Of a stretch of 64,000 bases of DNA, positions 54,360 through 61,449 are shown in pieces. Below the pieces are notes generated by a model. The model was not told where the DNA came from. It made no database searches and worked only from the letters and a program-made list of their open reading frames with translations. The DNA is taken from positions 1 through 64,000 of the forward strand of contig QCIS01000004.1 in NCBI GenBank assembly GCA_003216535.1, given 5' to 3'. Source of the stretch: Prochlorococcus sp. AG-402-N08 (GTDB taxonomy: Bacteria; Cyanobacteriota; Cyanobacteriia; PCC-6307; Cyanobiaceae). Both the position numbers and the translations under genes were made by a program. Positions within the stretch are counted from its first letter, which is position 1. Each line of letters begins with the position of its first letter.

Positions 54360-55361
54360 ATGATTAAAAATAAAAATATTTTAATTACTGGAGGTAATTC
54401 AGGCATAGGTTTTTTTGCCATTATTAATTTACTGAAGACGGAAAATAATTTATATGTTGTAATAAAAAACGAATTAAGAAAGAAAGAATTTCTAAAAAAA
54501 ATTGAGAAATATTTTGATAAAAATTACCTTAGTAAATTTTTAAATATTATTGAAAATTGTGATCTTTCAGATCTAGAGAATATTAAAAAAATTAAAGATT
54601 ACTTTATTAGTAAAAAGATTTTTTTAGATGTAGTTGTTTTAAATGCAGGATTGCAATATACAGGCTCTTTTTACCCTAAAGTATCAAAACAAGGTATAGA
54701 ACTAACTTTTGCGGTAAATCATCTTTCACATTTTTACTTGGTAAATATCCTAAAAGATTTTGTAAGAGATAAAGAAGAATCTAGAATCATTATTACATCA
54801 TCAGATGTTCACGATCCCAAAAGTTCAGGTGGCAATATAGGAAAGAAAGCAGGACTTAATAACCTAGTTGATTTTAGAAAAAAAGTAGTTGGGCAATTTT
54901 TAAATTTTAATGCTGATGAAGCTTATAAAAATAGTAAGTTATGTAATATTTTGTTTGCTAAAGAACTTGAAAAAAAATTAAAAATGTCCTCTAGTAAAAT
55001 TTCTGTAATTACTTGGGCTCCTGGTCTAGTAATACCAAATGATGATTCAGGTTTTTTTAGATACAGTAAAAGTTTTAATCTCTTTGGATATTTAATTTTT
55101 TCTAAAGCTGCAAAAAATATTTTTGGAATTTCTGAAAGTTTAGAAAATGCTGGAAAGATACTTTCTCAGATAGTCCTTGATTCAAATTTAAATAATATTG
55201 GCTTCATACATTTAAGTAATAAACTTATATCTTTTAAAAAACATAAATTAGTTAAAAGTAATGTTAGTGAGGAAGCAAATAGTGCTGAGTTGGCCTCAAA
55301 ACTCTGGATTTTAAGTGAGGAGATTTGCGGATCATTTGGCTTTGTTACTTTCAATATTTAA
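54360..55361 (+). CDS. Divergent protochlorophyllide-reductase-like SDR (POR paralogue)
   Basis: This 333-residue protein resembles light-dependent POR, an SDR that reduces protochlorophyllide. Shared signatures are the Rossmann loop GGNSGIG (11-17), NAGLQYTG (95-102), TSSDVHDPKSSGGNIGKKA (146-164) and EAYKNSKLCNILFAKEL (187-203), with Tyr189, Lys193 and Cys195. The C-terminal ASKLWILSEEICG also matches POR. The key active-site cysteine of POR (Cys226 in Synechocystis numbering, in PGC) is replaced by Leu223 (APGLV). The gene is more AT-rich than its neighbours, with 225 bp of A/T-rich upstream DNA. Reductase activity on another pigment or an altered POR is possible. Confidence 0.72.
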   Translation: MIKNKNILITGGNSGIGFFAIINLLKTENNLYVVIKNELRKKEFLKKIEKYFDKNYLSKFLNIIENCDLSDLENIKKIKDYFISKKIFLDVVVLNAGLQYTGSFYPKVSKQGIELTFAVNHLSHFYLVNILKDFVRDKEESRIIITSSDVHDPKSSGGNIGKKAGLNNLVDFRKKVVGQFLNFNADEAYKNSKLCNILFAKELEKKLKMSSSKISVITWAPGLVIPNDDSGFFRYSKSFNLFGYLIFSKAAKNIFGISESLENAGKILSQIVLDSNLNNIGFIHLSNKLISFKKHKLVKSNVSEEANSAELASKLWILSEEICGSFGFVTFNI

Positions 55362-56369
55362 GGTTTGTGTTGGGAATGCAAACTCAATATTATTAACTGC
55401 GAATTCTTCAATTATTTTTAAATTTATAGATTGTTGAGCTTCCATCGCAGCAAGATAATTATTTGTTGGTATGTAATAAACAAGTTCGAAATTAAGACTG
55501 AAGTCGCCAAAATCTGTAAAATGACATCTATCAAAAGACGCATCTTTTGTCTCTTCAACTATTTTTTTTATTATTATTGGAATCAATTTCATAAGTTTTG
55601 GAGAGGTTTCATAAACAACTCCTAATTTATGCACTAACCTTCTTTTTTTCATTTGTGCGTAATTTGAAATTATTCCATTTGTAAGGGCGCTGTTGCTCAT
55701 TACTATTACTTCTCCATTGATACTTCTTATCCTTGAGGATCTTACTCCGACCCTCTCAACCATTCCTAGGACTCCATCAGATTTAATAAACTCACCTTTT
55801 TGAAAAGGTTTATCAAGCAAAATTGTTATGTATTCAAAGAACTCCTGAACTGGATCTTTCAAAGCTAATCCTGCTCCAATACCCCCTGCACTGAGTAAAG
55901 CCCAAATAGCAGTCATTTGAACACCTATATTTTGTAAGAAAAATATTGAACCAATAGTCCATGTTAATGCTTTTATTAAAGGAGTAAGTGAAGATATCAT
56001 TGAACTGATTGAGGAATCGTTAATTTTCGATGTCGATTCTGTTAAAGATTTGATTAAAACTTTGTTGAGAGCTTTTATAATGATTATCAATATAAATAAT
56101 TTTTTAATATTCAATAAGACTGAGATAAAAGTTATTTCATCAGCAAAAAAATAATCAATTGAAAAATAAAATGAGAGGAGAAAACCTATAGGTTTAATAA
56201 TTCCAGAGGCGACCTCAAAAATAAAATCATCAAAATTTGTTTTTGTACGTTTGGAGATCTTTTTGAAGAATATTTTTGAAAGTTTAGAAATTATTATCGA
56301 CAATAAAATGCCAATAAAAAAAATAGATATCGCCAGAAGGAAGTTTTCAGTAACTAATTTCATATTCAA
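55332..56369 (-). CDS. Mechanosensitive channel of the MscS family
   Basis: MscS channels open on membrane tension and release solutes on osmotic downshock. The 345-residue protein has about four to five hydrophobic helices (about 7-30, 55-75, 80-100, 125-170), the pore helix with Gly/Ala packing in LLSAGGIGAGLALKDPVQEFFEY (about 160-182), the beta domain GEFIKSDGVLGMVERVGVRSSRIRSINGEVIVMSN (about 193-227), and the C-terminal alpha/beta domain. Conductance and gating cannot be judged. The 3' end overlaps the convergent POR-like gene by 30 bp. It may act with the compatible-solute-like genes at 58.5-61 kb, but that is an inference. Confidence 0.88.
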   Translation of the reverse strand: MNMKLVTENFLLAISIFFIGILLSIIISKLSKIFFKKISKRTKTNFDDFIFEVASGIIKPIGFLLSFYFSIDYFFADEITFISVLLNIKKLFILIIIIKALNKVLIKSLTESTSKINDSSISSMISSLTPLIKALTWTIGSIFFLQNIGVQMTAIWALLSAGGIGAGLALKDPVQEFFEYITILLDKPFQKGEFIKSDGVLGMVERVGVRSSRIRSINGEVIVMSNSALTNGIISNYAQMKKRRLVHKLGVVYETSPKLMKLIPIIIKKIVEETKDASFDRCHFTDFGDFSLNFELVYYIPTNNYLAAMEAQQSINLKIIEEFAVNNIEFAFPTQTLNIESNKAK

Positions 56370-57125: not shown

Positions 57126-57581
57126 TTGTTGTCGTTATCCTCTCAATACAATGTCATCACATCTCCTCTTGGCGACGGTTTACATAAAGATGGGAAGAGG
57201 TTAACTCCTCAGAGGCTTAAGGTTCTTAATTTATTTGAAAATATTGGTTCTGGAAAGCATCTTAGTGCTGAAGAGGTTCATGAAAAGTTAGTTAAATCAA
57301 GTGCCAAAGTTTCGCTTGCAACAATTTATAGAACTTTAAGACTTTTAGTACAAATGGGTTTGCTTCATGAATTGGAACTCAGTGAGGGCGGACACAGATA
57401 TGAGTTGCTCAGTAATGATACTCCTGATCATCATCATTTAATTTGTATTAGGTGTGGAAGAACAGAAGAATTCGAAAATGACGATGTTTTAGAAGCAGGC
57501 AAAGTTGCAGCAAAAATTAATGGGTTTAAACTAATTGAATCCTCTTTAAACGTTAGAGCTATATGTCCTAATTGCATTTAG
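57126..57581 (+). CDS. fur: Ferric uptake regulator-family transcription factor
   Basis: Fur-family proteins sense a metal (iron, zinc, manganese) or peroxide and repress uptake genes. The 151-residue protein has the winged-helix region with recognition helix SLATIYRTLRLLVQ (about 63-76), the metal-binding HHHLICIRCG (His102-104, Cys107, Cys110) and a C-terminal pair Cys147/Cys150 (CPNC). The two CxxC sites form the usual structural zinc. Which metal is sensed is not settled; Fur, Zur and PerR differ little here. The start is TTG at 57126 (TTG at 57129 is an alternative). A palindrome lies directly upstream. Confidence 0.88.
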   Translation: MLSLSSQYNVITSPLGDGLHKDGKRLTPQRLKVLNLFENIGSGKHLSAEEVHEKLVKSSAKVSLATIYRTLRLLVQMGLLHELELSEGGHRYELLSNDTPDHHHLICIRCGRTEEFENDDVLEAGKVAAKINGFKLIESSLNVRAICPNCI

Positions 57582-57587
57582 CATATT

Positions 57588-58520
57588 TCAACTTAAAGTC
57601 CCTCCGCAACTTGATCCTGCACCTGCAGTACAAGCAAAACAATGTTCTTTTACAGCTACCCTGTAGTCAAAAGTAAATGACTCATCCAATAGATCAAAAA
57701 GTGTCTTTGGTCCTTTATTCTCTCGGAAATTTATCTGTTGATTGAAGTCACAATCATAAATTTCTCCAAGCCAATTTACACTAATAGTTTTTTTGCACAT
57801 AAGATTTTCTAAATTATTTTTATTAAAATTTTCTTTTAGTAATTTGAAATAAGTATTTAGTTTCCCCTCTCTTCTTAGAGATTCTTCATATCTATTTATG
57901 GGCATATTAGTTATTGTATATAAGTTATTAAAAACAATATTATATTTTTCGTATAGTATTTTTTTATAATCTTGTTCCAATATTTTCTGAGCAGGAGGAA
58001 GAATTGGGCTTACAGGATTGTAAACAAGATTTAATTGCAATCCATTTTCTTTCTTTCCATAGCCTAAATCATTAAGAATTTTTATAGCATTAATACTTTT
58101 TTCAAAAACCCCAATACCCCTCTGAAACTCAACATTATTTTTTTCGTAACATGGTAGCGAAGCTGTAACTATCACATTATTCTTTGCAAGAAATTGAGGA
58201 AGATCTTCATAACCTTCTTCAAAGAAAATTGTCAAATTACACCTGTCAATAATATCAACCTTTTTTGTGCTCAAACTATTTATTAGGTTTTTAAACTCTG
58301 GGTGAAGTTCTGGTGCGCCACCCGTAATATCTAAAGTCTTAATTTTGTATTTTTCAATTATTTTTGGAATAACAGATATAATTTCATTTGACATCTTTTC
58401 TGTCCTTAGGGGACTTGAATTGACATGACAATGCTTACAAGCCTGGTTGCATTTATAACCTATATTAATTTGCAATGTTTCTATAGGTTCTTTATATATT
58501 GAGGGGAATTTTTCTTTCAT
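57588..58520 (-). CDS. arsS: Arsenosugar biosynthesis radical SAM protein (ArsS-like)
   Basis: ArsS is a radical SAM enzyme thought to add the 5'-deoxyadenosyl group to dimethylarsenite to make arsenosugars. The radical SAM cysteines are CNQACKHC (Cys24, 28, 31 with the start chosen here), preceded by ETLQINIGYK. The C-terminal Fe-S/SPASM-like signature is HCFACTAGAGSSCGG, and the middle has FNNLYTITNMPINRYEESL. The open frame extends upstream to 58604, but those 28 residues overlap stpA by 44 bp and have no family counterpart. ATG at 58520, giving MKEKFPSIYKEPIETL, fits the family, so I chose it. The last 6 bp before fur's end leave no terminator. Confidence 0.85.
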   Translation of the reverse strand: MKEKFPSIYKEPIETLQINIGYKCNQACKHCHVNSSPLRTEKMSNEIISVIPKIIEKYKIKTLDITGGAPELHPEFKNLINSLSTKKVDIIDRCNLTIFFEEGYEDLPQFLAKNNVIVTASLPCYEKNNVEFQRGIGVFEKSINAIKILNDLGYGKKENGLQLNLVYNPVSPILPPAQKILEQDYKKILYEKYNIVFNNLYTITNMPINRYEESLRREGKLNTYFKLLKENFNKNNLENLMCKKTISVNWLGEIYDCDFNQQINFRENKGPKTLFDLLDESFTFDYRVAVKEHCFACTAGAGSSCGGTLS

Positions 58521-58560
58521 ATATATATTATTTATAAATTGACATTCGAAAACTAAAAAA

Positions 58561-59781
58561 TCAACTATTTTTTTTAAAGTTTGATCTCTTATTAGCAAGT
58601 TCAATGAACCAACTTATATATTCTTTGGGACCATTTTTAAAAACTATATCAAACTTTAAGTTGTCATAAATATCACTAATTCCTATTAAACCAGTTTTTT
58701 TTGTAGAAGGTCTTTCAACTTCACCAGAACTACTATCTACAAAAATTATTTTATTATTAATCCCAAATTCATTACCTAATATTTGTATAAATTCTAAAAA
58801 AGACCTGTCACTCCCTCCTCTTAAATAATTTTTCTTACCATTATTTTTTTTTGAGGTTACTGTGTCACCAACTCCTACAATCAGTGGCATATCTTCTATT
58901 TGAATATTTCTTTTGCAAAAATCAATTTTATCCTTAATAGAATTTGGAGAATTTCTAAAATTAAAATCACTTCCAAAAGGAGCTTTACCAGTTTTATCCG
59001 TAATAAATTTATTTAAAAGAAATAAAACTCCAGAATCTTTAACTGCTCCTTTAATGAGTAATTGTATGTCTGTTGATCCAATATCATCTTTAGAAGAAAG
59101 TTTAATTTTTTCTCTACCATTTTCATTACCTAAATTTGGTGAAATATGAAGGAAAAATGAGTTTTTGAGGCCTTCGGATTCAGCTTTTAAGATGATTTCA
59201 TACATCATTTTTTCAAAACTAATTTGAATAAGCTTTCTTTTATCAGGATCTTTGTGAACTAAATCAAATAGACTATTGAAATTAATAGTTGGCGAGAAGC
59301 GTGTTTCACAAATTGATTTTACTGCGTGAAAATTGATATCTTCTTGGCTAAGTTCAGGAAAAATATTCTTAACTATAAAATTAAATTTTGGTCTTATTAA
59401 ACTAGGTACTTTGGATAGAAAATTTAGTTCTTTTTCTGAAACTCCTTCAAAACTTATTTCACCTTTGTTGTCTTGATACTCTACTCCACAGGCTGCTAAA
59501 CCTCTTAAATATAGTTCTTTGTTTTTAGGCTCAGTAGTGCTCCTTAAACTCCTTTCTATTATTCTGTTAACTCCTCTTGACCCTTCATGTTCCCCGCAAG
59601 TTAATACAAAGAATTCCTCAGCAAATTCTTTAACTGCATAGATATATTTTGATTCTAACTTTCTAGTCATTGGATCTTTAACTAAAGGGATACAAACTCC
59701 GTCAATATCTTGAATAATTAAGATATTTTTAGAAGAAATTAATTGTTTTTGTACCTTTAAATTACTTGCCAAATATTCCAT
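58561..59781 (-). CDS. stpA: Glucosylglycerol-phosphate phosphatase-like protein (StpA/GgpP family)
   Basis: This 406-residue protein matches the StpA/GgpP family, which dephosphorylates glucosylglycerol-3-phosphate, the last step of the compatible solute glucosylglycerol. The HAD-like motif LIIQDIDGVCIPLVKDP (21-37) supplies Asp25 and Asp27. Other similar segments are VLTCGEHEGSRGVNRI (about 59-74), GLKNSFFLHISPNLG, KDSGVLFLLNKFI and the C-terminal MPLIVGVGDTVTS with LRGGSDRSFLEF. GgpS, the synthase, is not in the window. The neighbour arsS starts 40 bp beyond its stop, so they are probably one transcript, divergent from the dehydrogenase-like gene. Confidence 0.85.
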   Translation of the reverse strand: MEYLASNLKVQKQLISSKNILIIQDIDGVCIPLVKDPMTRKLESKYIYAVKEFAEEFFVLTCGEHEGSRGVNRIIERSLRSTTEPKNKELYLRGLAACGVEYQDNKGEISFEGVSEKELNFLSKVPSLIRPKFNFIVKNIFPELSQEDINFHAVKSICETRFSPTINFNSLFDLVHKDPDKRKLIQISFEKMMYEIILKAESEGLKNSFFLHISPNLGNENGREKIKLSSKDDIGSTDIQLLIKGAVKDSGVLFLLNKFITDKTGKAPFGSDFNFRNSPNSIKDKIDFCKRNIQIEDMPLIVGVGDTVTSKKNNGKKNYLRGGSDRSFLEFIQILGNEFGINNKIIFVDSSSGEVERPSTKKTGLIGISDIYDNLKFDIVFKNGPKEYISWFIELANKRSNFKKNS

Positions 59782-59940
59782 ATTTATAATTATTTCTCTT
59801 TTTATTAAATTTTTAAGAAATTATAAATTAAAAAATTCAATATTTACAATAAATAATTTGCTATGGTCAAAAATTGCTTTAATGTAGAAAAATATTGTTA
59901 ATGATAAGAAATTAAAAAATTATCAAGAATTTCCAAAAAA

Positions 59941-61449
59941 ATGAAGAATAATTTCATAGAAAACATAAATGATGAAAAATATTTTTATTCATTGATTGAA
60001 GATATAGAGAACAGCAAAGTTGGATTCTACAGTGTTGGTTTATATCCTGCTTCATTAGCATACAACTGTGCTATGCATGGAAAATCAAACAATATTCTCT
60101 TGGCGCCTAGGGAAGATAGAGATTTGTTAGGTGCTTTCTCAAATGATGTTCTTTCTGATATGGATGTTGAGATTATTGAAAAGATTAAGAGAATGGGACA
60201 TTATTCTTCAGAGGGGAAGAGAAAGTCTTTTGATCTAAAAGATCTTCTCTTGGAATGTGAGATAGTTATTCTTGCTTCAAACAGTAATCACATAAAAGAT
60301 GATGTTAAACATGCTTTAGAACTCAAAAAAACTTTAAAAAGAGAAAATGTGGTTCTTGGCTGTCTCGTCGGTTCTTTTTGCGTTGATAATAAAAGTAAAA
60401 ACCCTTTTATTCTCTGTAATAAATATCCAAATTTAGCTTTTTTTACAGGATTTCATCGTCATGGAGCTTTACGAAATCCTAATGATAGTTTTACTGCAAA
60501 TTTCTGCCATCCTGATGCCCTAACTGCTTTAATAGGAGCTCGCATTTTGAATAAATTGTCCCCGAAAATTCAAGTTTCTCCTGGAGTTCATAATATTGAA
60601 TGTCAATATATAAAATCAATAAAAAATATCTCATCCATATTTGCAGGTTTTGTAAATAACTTTCATTCCGATAAGCCAGGAATGCTACCTAGCATTAATA
60701 CGATTTTGTTAACTCAATGTTTAGATCAGGCCGCATCAGTATCATTACAAGTTAGAAAAGAAAATAAACTAGAAAATAAATATCTTTCATTAAAAGAACT
60801 TGGTTATGGAGAAGAAATAATTAGTGCAAAGGAAATAATTAATGATAAATTTTGTGAAAAAGGAGATTATACTTTCTCTCAATTGAATGCTGTTAAGGCT
60901 GATGTCTTAGGGAGCATGACTCTACCAACTGAAGGAAAACCAACACGGAATTTTCAGGCAGGACAAGTTTTATCAGATATGCTTTTGCAACTCAACAGAT
61001 GTCCAAAAGATGTCTCAGAATTTATAAATTGGTGTAATAAATACTCTCTCAGTCAAGGAGGTTTAGAAGGTCTAAAATCTTTAAATTTTTGGCCAGAAAT
61101 TTATAAAGAATTCAAAATCAAAAATAATAATTGTTCAATGATTAATCTTATTTATTTATGCTTTAATGCTAACTCAGAAGAAAAAAAAGAAATTTATAAA
61201 GTTTTAATTAGTTCAGAAGAAATCACTAATTTTTGCCAAGAATCTGTTAAATCCGAATTATCTTTGGAACTAAATGAAAAATTAAAAGGAGATTATCTTT
61301 TTAATGATATTGAAAACCTTTATAGTAAATTGTTTTTTAACAAAGAGGAAAATGATCTTAAAAAACATGAAAACAATGATCAAATTTCTAAAAAATTTCC
61401 AAGTTATATTAATGTCTTGAAAATTATTAATAATTATTTTAATAATTGA
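59941..61449 (+). CDS. Rossmann-fold dehydrogenase-like protein, uncharacterised
   Basis: I do not recognise a named family for this 502-residue protein. The N-terminal region (26-160) looks like a NAD(P)-binding Rossmann fold of the 6-phosphogluconate/glycerol-3-phosphate dehydrogenase type. It has KVGFYSVGLYPASLAYNCAMHG (about 26-47), ILLAPREDRD after the second strand, and CEIVILASNSNHI for a middle strand. A polar centre (FFTGFHRHGALRNPNDSF) and a helical C-terminal half follow, with VNNFHSDKPGMLPSINTILLTQC near residue 240. It is divergent from stpA with a 159-bp gap. Supplying a sn-glycerol-phosphate or sugar-acid intermediate is one possibility, unproven. Confidence 0.6.
   Translation: MKNNFIENINDEKYFYSLIEDIENSKVGFYSVGLYPASLAYNCAMHGKSNNILLAPREDRDLLGAFSNDVLSDMDVEIIEKIKRMGHYSSEGKRKSFDLKDLLLECEIVILASNSNHIKDDVKHALELKKTLKRENVVLGCLVGSFCVDNKSKNPFILCNKYPNLAFFTGFHRHGALRNPNDSFTANFCHPDALTALIGARILNKLSPKIQVSPGVHNIECQYIKSIKNISSIFAGFVNNFHSDKPGMLPSINTILLTQCLDQAASVSLQVRKENKLENKYLSLKELGYGEEIISAKEIINDKFCEKGDYTFSQLNAVKADVLGSMTLPTEGKPTRNFQAGQVLSDMLLQLNRCPKDVSEFINWCNKYSLSQGGLEGLKSLNFWPEIYKEFKIKNNNCSMINLIYLCFNANSEEKKEIYKVLISSEEITNFCQESVKSELSLELNEKLKGDYLFNDIENLYSKLFFNKEENDLKKHENNDQISKKFPSYINVLKIINNYFNN

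Follow-up and report, generated by a model that had tools for sequence, protein, structure and literature searches.

The window analysed here comprises the first 64,000 nucleotides (forward strand) of contig QCIS01000004.1 of Prochlorococcus sp. AG-402-N08, whose genome of 1.61 Mb is 97% complete. Four genes lie together towards its end (Table 1): one for a Fur-family regulator, arsS for a radical SAM protein, stpA (or ggpP) for a phosphatase and, divergent from the latter, a gene whose product is called GX as a working name. GX, which appears to be an enzyme of glycerol-3-phosphate (G3P) formation, and its association with StpA are the main subjects of this work. StpA and ArsS pass the equivalog cut-offs of TIGR02399 and TIGR04167 (365.5 and 300 bits, respectively), as expected from a previous reading of the letters alone (the sequence-only reading), which had placed an arsenosugar-type radical SAM gene 40 bp behind an StpA/GgpP-like phosphatase. 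This 40-bp gap runs from the arsS ATG at 58520 to the stop of stpA; a longer open reading frame (ORF) of arsS with a TTG start (to 58604) is unlikely because it runs into stpA. The large divergent ORF of the same reading is also real: GX orthologues are found in all six genomes of the genus sampled (own genome included), stpA is divergent from GX in 80 of 80 named Prochlorococcus/Synechococcaceae loci (80 of the 305 found, every one picked for holding GX), and the gene is under purifying selection (median dN/dS 0.145 in 25 sampled loci). The closest copies belong to Prochlorococcus single-cell genomes (identity up to 97%), followed by those of strains MIT 9302 and MIT 9107 (94%) and MIT 9201 (92%).

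Table 1. Features of the stpA-GX locus, in positions of the window.
Feature	Coordinates	Strand	Basis
GX, 502 aa, proposed divergent NAD(P)-dependent G3P dehydrogenase-like protein	59941..61449	+	fold match, complementary to GpsA across genomes
stpA/ggpP, 406 aa, glucosylglycerol-phosphate phosphatase family	58561..59781	-	TIGR02399 614.8 bits, PF09506 498 bits
stpA-GX divergent intergenic region, 159 bp, putative shared promoter region	59782..59940	.	coordinates and divergent arrangement
arsS, 310 aa, arsenosugar-type radical SAM protein, syntenic neighbour	57588..58520	-	TIGR04167 442.6 bits
Fur-family regulator gene, conserved neighbour of arsS	57126..57581	+	PF01475 119 bits, synteny

GX has no match to any Pfam or NCBIfam model, including PF01210 and PF07479. 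Searches of the PDB sequences with GX alone and as a profile returned chance-level matches only, and an NCBIfam scan of 29 GX members gave only weak, scattered, and unrelated matches. An AlphaFold model built on an alignment of 29 orthologues (pLDDT 81, pTM 0.82) was compared with the PDB by Foldseek, and only G3P dehydrogenases occupy the first 14 ranks (E 1.8e-9 to 1.3e-7). With VIA-align, 16 G3P dehydrogenase entries reach Z scores of 22.1-28.4 (rmsd 3.0-3.9 over 298-332 residues), while the next family, ketopantoate reductase, reaches 14.1. A second model, made for a GX member 46-47% identical to the first with a partly different alignment that included an outlier genome, agrees (16 G3P dehydrogenase entries with Z 21.6-27.3; next family 13.6). 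The fold predicted by both models is that of the G3P dehydrogenases, a Rossmann domain plus a helical C-terminal domain, which matches the "Rossmann-type" guess made earlier. With GpsA/GPD1 (PF01210, PF07479; EC 1.1.1.8 / 1.1.1.94), GX would have in common the fold, which aligns at Z scores of up to 28 over about 300-330 residues, a Lys-Asn motif in the C-terminal domain, and a [ST]RN motif. K228-N229, D321, and T335-R336-N337 are invariant in 29/29 GX members, and we take Lys-Asn, Asp, and [ST]RN to be catalytic or substrate residues of G3P dehydrogenases. K228-N229 was set on the KN of GpsA by hhalign in a non-significant alignment, whereas D321 and TRN were paired by eye only. The two proteins also differ in length, since 13 cyanobacterial GpsA (starts trimmed) have about 300-311 aa and GX about 500, with an extra stretch at around 270-310 and a C-terminal extension according to the alignments. 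Because of the lack of significant sequence similarity and of an altered nucleotide-binding loop (SxGxxP), GX is not a GpsA by the sequence definition of the family; the proposal is that it works like one. It very probably makes G3P all the same, and its distance from the textbook enzyme is such that sequence models fail to recognise it.

The distribution of GX points in the same direction. The searches covered 151 genomes of the family, of which 95 are at least 90% complete (near-complete genomes); the remaining 56 were kept out of the joint table and tallied separately. Canonical GpsA (PF07479) is found in 64/151 genomes, glycerol kinase (GlpK) in 62 (matches at E <=0.001, 10 of them over the curated cut-off; best match per genome E 8e-142 or lower) and GlpD in 60. 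The glucosylglycerol-phosphate synthase GgpS enters the joint tables with 61 genomes over cut-off, the weaker matches of genomes G069, G096, G118, and G143 being dropped. GX occurs in 75 and StpA in 78 genomes, fragments included (both in G069; StpA in G057 and G027). In the near-complete set, GX without GpsA and GpsA without GX are found in 39 genomes each, both genes in 15, and neither in two, so that 93/95 carry one or the other. In the pair with neither (G013 and G073), stpA ends a contig of 3.2-3.3 kb at the place where GX should start. The joint patterns of GX, GpsA, GlpK, GlpD, StpA, and GgpS are few: GpsA alone (38 genomes), all except GpsA (20), GX and StpA alone (19), all six (13), and five exceptions. 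No near-complete genome lacks GX, GpsA, and GlpK together. The own genome, without any match for PF07479, GgpS, GlpK, or GlpD, belongs to the group with GX and StpA alone. Membrane lipids need G3P as their backbone, and PlsY, the acyltransferase which consumes it, is present in all 95 near-complete genomes, own genome included. Since GpsA, glycerol kinase, and GlpD are missing from those 19 genomes while PlsY is present, GX is the sole G3P-making candidate found in them by searches that did not extend to G3P uptake or glycerol-1-phosphate dehydrogenase; the FAD-dependent G3P enzyme was likewise not found there.

This assignment fits two published remarks. EC 1.1.1.94 was not annotated in the Prochlorococcus strains studied nor in Synechococcus WH7803 (PMC3369817), and marine and brackish strains were described with the FAD-dependent enzyme (glpA) instead of gpsA, which was attributed to freshwater strains and to the SC5.2 brackish ones (PMC9361551). 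GX was not identified in the open-licence passages searched and may carry a name in databases outside them; the passages found in two papers on genome-scale models of Prochlorococcus are silent on this reaction. GX may be one of SYNW0859, SYNW0860, and SYNW0861; the first and last of these tags do not occur in the two papers listed under the three.

The strongest link of the locus is that between GX and stpA, and the observations support that both belong together. Among the near-complete genomes, 53 have both, 38 neither, one GX alone, and three StpA alone; two of these three are G013 and G073, with the contig break mentioned above. The co-occurrence check proposed by the sequence-only reading came out well for this pair (StpA in 53 of the 54 near-complete genomes with GX) and failed for ArsS, which is independent of both. 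GX and StpA lie on opposite strands at most 5 kb apart in 63 of the 73 genomes with both, and apart in 10, four of these only by being on different contigs. Rare exceptions among the genomes are G083, with GX and GgpS but no StpA, and G102, with StpA, GgpS, and GpsA but no GX. In two genera (g10 and g24, three loci) an HSP90-type gene and ggpS are followed by genes for a solute-binding protein and an ABC ATPase, with two ORFs at the permease position between them; GX comes next, on the other strand, then stpA, a GH13 gene, and glpD, with glpK beyond it (Pfam was run on one of the three loci). GX is, by this order, inside the glucosylglycerol island of both genera. In g10, g24, and a third genus, g35, GX comes and goes with GgpS, some members having the whole set and others none, with the exception of G102. 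In G069, GX (C3:16045-16613), StpA (C50:128397-129184), and GgpS (C48:26195-26567) are all fragments, an apparent joint decay, and a GpsA match over cut-off is present. The StpA considered here belongs by NCBIfam equivalog to the Synechocystis-type pathway of GgpS/GgpP and the Ggt transporter; this pathway is incomplete in the own genome, as GgpS, GlpK, and GlpD have no match.

Taken as a whole, it is highly likely that GX is the G3P dehydrogenase of marine picocyanobacteria, that it replaced GpsA after entering with the glucosylglycerol island, and that ArsS is a bystander. This explanation is built on gene presence and absence, linkage, predicted fold, and purifying selection; the reaction, the cofactor, the history of the replacement, and what StpA does in genomes lacking GgpS are inferred. 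GX, a very divergent enzyme of the G3P dehydrogenase fold in place of canonical GpsA, would reduce dihydroxyacetone phosphate to G3P with NAD(P)H, and it very probably makes this acceptor for glucosylglycerol synthesis. It probably entered with the salt-adaptation island as G3P supplier for GgpS, with StpA taking the phosphate off glucosylglycerol-phosphate. It would feed membrane-lipid synthesis via PlsY too where GpsA is missing from Synechococcus-like and Prochlorococcus genomes, a metabolic place shared with GpsA that is suggested by their complementary distribution. The simplest history would begin with the arrival of GX as supplier for the osmolyte, continue with the loss of GpsA in the marine clade and end with the loss of ggpS, glpK, and glpD in Prochlorococcus (the labels "marine" and "freshwater" are deduced from gene content and from PMC9361551). 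We propose that GX was kept in the lineages without ggpS because it is their sole de novo route to G3P. If GX is indeed the missing enzyme, a gap would be closed in the metabolic maps of phototrophs that are among the commonest in the ocean; an enzyme tied to an osmolyte pathway would have replaced a housekeeping one, marking the marine-freshwater divide.

Several points weigh against this explanation. With regard to the sequence, PF07479 matches only one of the 29 GX members, and weakly (E 0.0087), and the alignment of the GX profile with the 13 cyanobacterial GpsA by hhalign is non-significant in local and global mode, the local one being confined to the surroundings of the Lys-Asn motif (E 0.3). 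The nucleotide loop reads S31-x-G33-x-x-P36, with S31, G33, and P36 invariant in 29/29, and departs from the canonical GxGxxG, the GpsA set having G-x-G-A-W-G. A shared fold, itself predicted, is no proof of a shared substrate. GX also evolves faster than ArsS (median dN/dS 0.078) and Fur (0.040) in the same 25 loci, which a housekeeping enzyme need not do. A role in lipids is unneeded in the 15 near-complete genomes where GpsA is also present, and the genome tallies are not phylogenetically independent. In the less complete set (mean completeness 76%), 26/56 genomes (46%) lack both GX and GpsA, compared with 18% without PlsY; 12 of the 26 have glycerol kinase and 19 are without ArsS over cut-off, and block drop-out from incomplete assemblies is indistinguishable from a possible real loss in some lineages. 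In this same set, GgpS is found without GX and StpA in 11 genomes, and GgpS without GX in G103 and G128.

It is important to note that StpA is kept where GgpS is gone, and the reason for its retention under selection, as partner of GX, is a question raised by these data. The sequence-only reading had seen no ArsM or GgpS in the window, which holds well beyond it for GgpS (TIGR02398), without a match in the own genome and in the five other genomes of the genus sampled. Nor is ggpS a constant companion of stpA, StpA and GX being kept without it in the 19 near-complete genomes mentioned above. StpA is intact in 79 of the 80 named loci (the remaining match covers 61%), with a median dN/dS of 0.18 in the 25 sampled loci that indicates purifying selection. 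The DxDG and GxxDT motifs are invariant in 31/31 StpA, and 72 of the 89 positions invariant in 15 genomes with GgpS are also kept in all 16 genomes without it. One explanation, unlikely in our opinion and nonetheless worth attention, is that StpA acts as a sucrose-phosphate phosphatase in Prochlorococcus without ggpS, GX being kept separately as a housekeeping G3P dehydrogenase. One report voices this idea as a speculation, StpA having taken on the function as spsA lost its phosphatase part, and describes MIT 9303 as having ggpP, missing ggpS and being unable to make glucosylglycerol (PMC11505929). The S6PP match of the own genome is weak (E 1.1e-7), and weak or none in 11 of the 19 genomes with GX and StpA alone, in accordance with the idea; the other eight have a strong S6PP and still keep StpA without GgpS. 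This weakens S6PP replacement as the sole reason for the retention of StpA. For GX itself, this alternative is compatible with the G3P dehydrogenase proposed here.

By analogy with an alga, a quite different use of the pair can be imagined. Dunaliella salina DsGPDH (6iuy) is an osmoregulatory G3P dehydrogenase fused to a phosphatase domain; GX shares its predicted fold (Z 25.9) and has a phosphatase encoded next door. GX and StpA might be the two-gene counterpart of the fused enzyme, in which GX would make G3P and StpA, freed from GgpS, would dephosphorylate G3P or a new glycosyl-G3P. Prochlorococcus without ggpS would in this way produce glycerol or a novel glycosyl-glycerol to serve as an osmolyte, a redox sink, or carbon for excretion; having lost GlpK and GlpD, it would be unable to recover the glycerol in the usual way. 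Such a scheme seems doubtful. The algal enzyme is one fused protein, whereas here there are two separate divergent ORFs, and StpA is of the GgpP family.

Also improbable, to a similar degree, is that GX, with its fold of G3P dehydrogenase, has a different phosphorylated ketose or a glycoside as substrate, perhaps in a step of its own glycosyl-glycerol pathway, while G3P comes from an unrecognised source. The distance of GX from GpsA in sequence, the atypical nucleotide loop, and the tight pairing with StpA even without GgpS speak for this reading. The price is that 19 near-complete genomes with PlsY are left without any G3P source found by the searches made, and that the complementarity of GX and GpsA becomes a coincidence.

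In the case of the adjacency of GX and stpA, one may ask if it is mere inherited gene order without functional tie, given that part of the family shows the same degree of synteny for many other neighbours. This appears improbable too: in g10 and g24, where the surrounding order differs, the two genes are still adjacent and divergent, they co-occur in the 10 genomes where they are apart, and they are broken together with GgpS in G069.

Inherited order looks, on the other hand, like the ordinary explanation for the place of arsS, since this gene also adjoins the Fur gene (the two are found together in 76 of the 80 named loci). In the fetched loci of the clade with arsS next to stpA, the order with Fur is kept, in some genera together with isochorismatase, MscS-type, and SDR genes. 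ArsS tallies refer to the 127/151 genomes over cut-off, 50 of which have no StpA, and a linkage of three genes including arsS, as suggested by the sequence-only reading, is not supported. The scores of these 127 matches against TIGR04167, a single fragment excepted, form two groups of about 428-464 and 354-382 bits, which look like two ArsS subfamilies in the same cyanobacterial family. As no genome reaches the curated cut-off of the ArsM model, E <1e-40 was chosen as threshold (87 genomes). At this level the own genome has one strong ArsM-like match, on another contig (G000:C11:47958-48557). An arsM-like gene lies within 10 kb of arsS in 23 genomes. None of them is among the 57 (of 77 with ArsS over cut-off and StpA) where arsS is at most 2 kb from stpA, so the pairing of arsM with arsS does not hold at this arrangement. 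In 16 near-complete genomes arsS is beside stpA with no ArsM match <1e-40 (G003, G010, G026, G031, G039, G053, G056, G058, G065, G073, G085, G086, G093, G110, G130, and G146); ArsS has no obvious supplier of dimethylated arsenic in them. Nine genomes have GX and stpA adjacent with arsS far off in six and, in three drafts, on a different contig. A pathway to an arsenosugar or to a glycosyl-glycerol-arsenic compound, with ArsS giving an adenosylated arsenical, GX the glycerol phosphate aglycone, and StpA the dephosphorylation, can draw on the 57 close neighbours and on the oxo-arsenosugars of cyanobacteria and the arsenic adenosylation by a radical SAM enzyme reported in PMC12159101, but is very hard to believe in view of the 50 genomes with ArsS without StpA, of arsM near arsS only where stpA is not beside it, of the 16 genomes without strong ArsM, and of the nine with arsS distant. 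The ArsS of this locus, similar to others of TIGR04167 as an equivalog match, is beside stpA by synteny and not clustered with arsM; it is probably just a neighbour and no part of the GX-stpA function. From the cluster for a glycosyl-glycerol derivative, possibly of arsenic, proposed by the sequence-only reading, the pair of GX and StpA stands, often without ggpS and with GX very probably making G3P, and the arsenic part is not supported.

Outside the family, GX was found in one of 292 genomes of the phylum searched, G220, a genome of 4.9 Mb from another family. This copy (C126:22705-24207; L208:14706-16217) is 67% identical to one of the family of GX, and the 34 kb fetched with it contain no stpA. 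Its position inside the picocyanobacterial copies in a FastTree tree (midpoint-rooted) suggests horizontal transfer. Viral contigs gave no relative of GX (70 pattern stretches, none confirmed).

Two other genes of the neighbourhood deserve mention. In several other genomes of the family, GX is followed by a gene for a 383-aa APH-type phosphotransferase (L154:9346-10497, + strand), missing after GX in this window. A gene for an MscS-type mechanosensitive channel lies at 55332-56369 (- strand), a few kb from stpA, and is syntenic with stpA in several genera.

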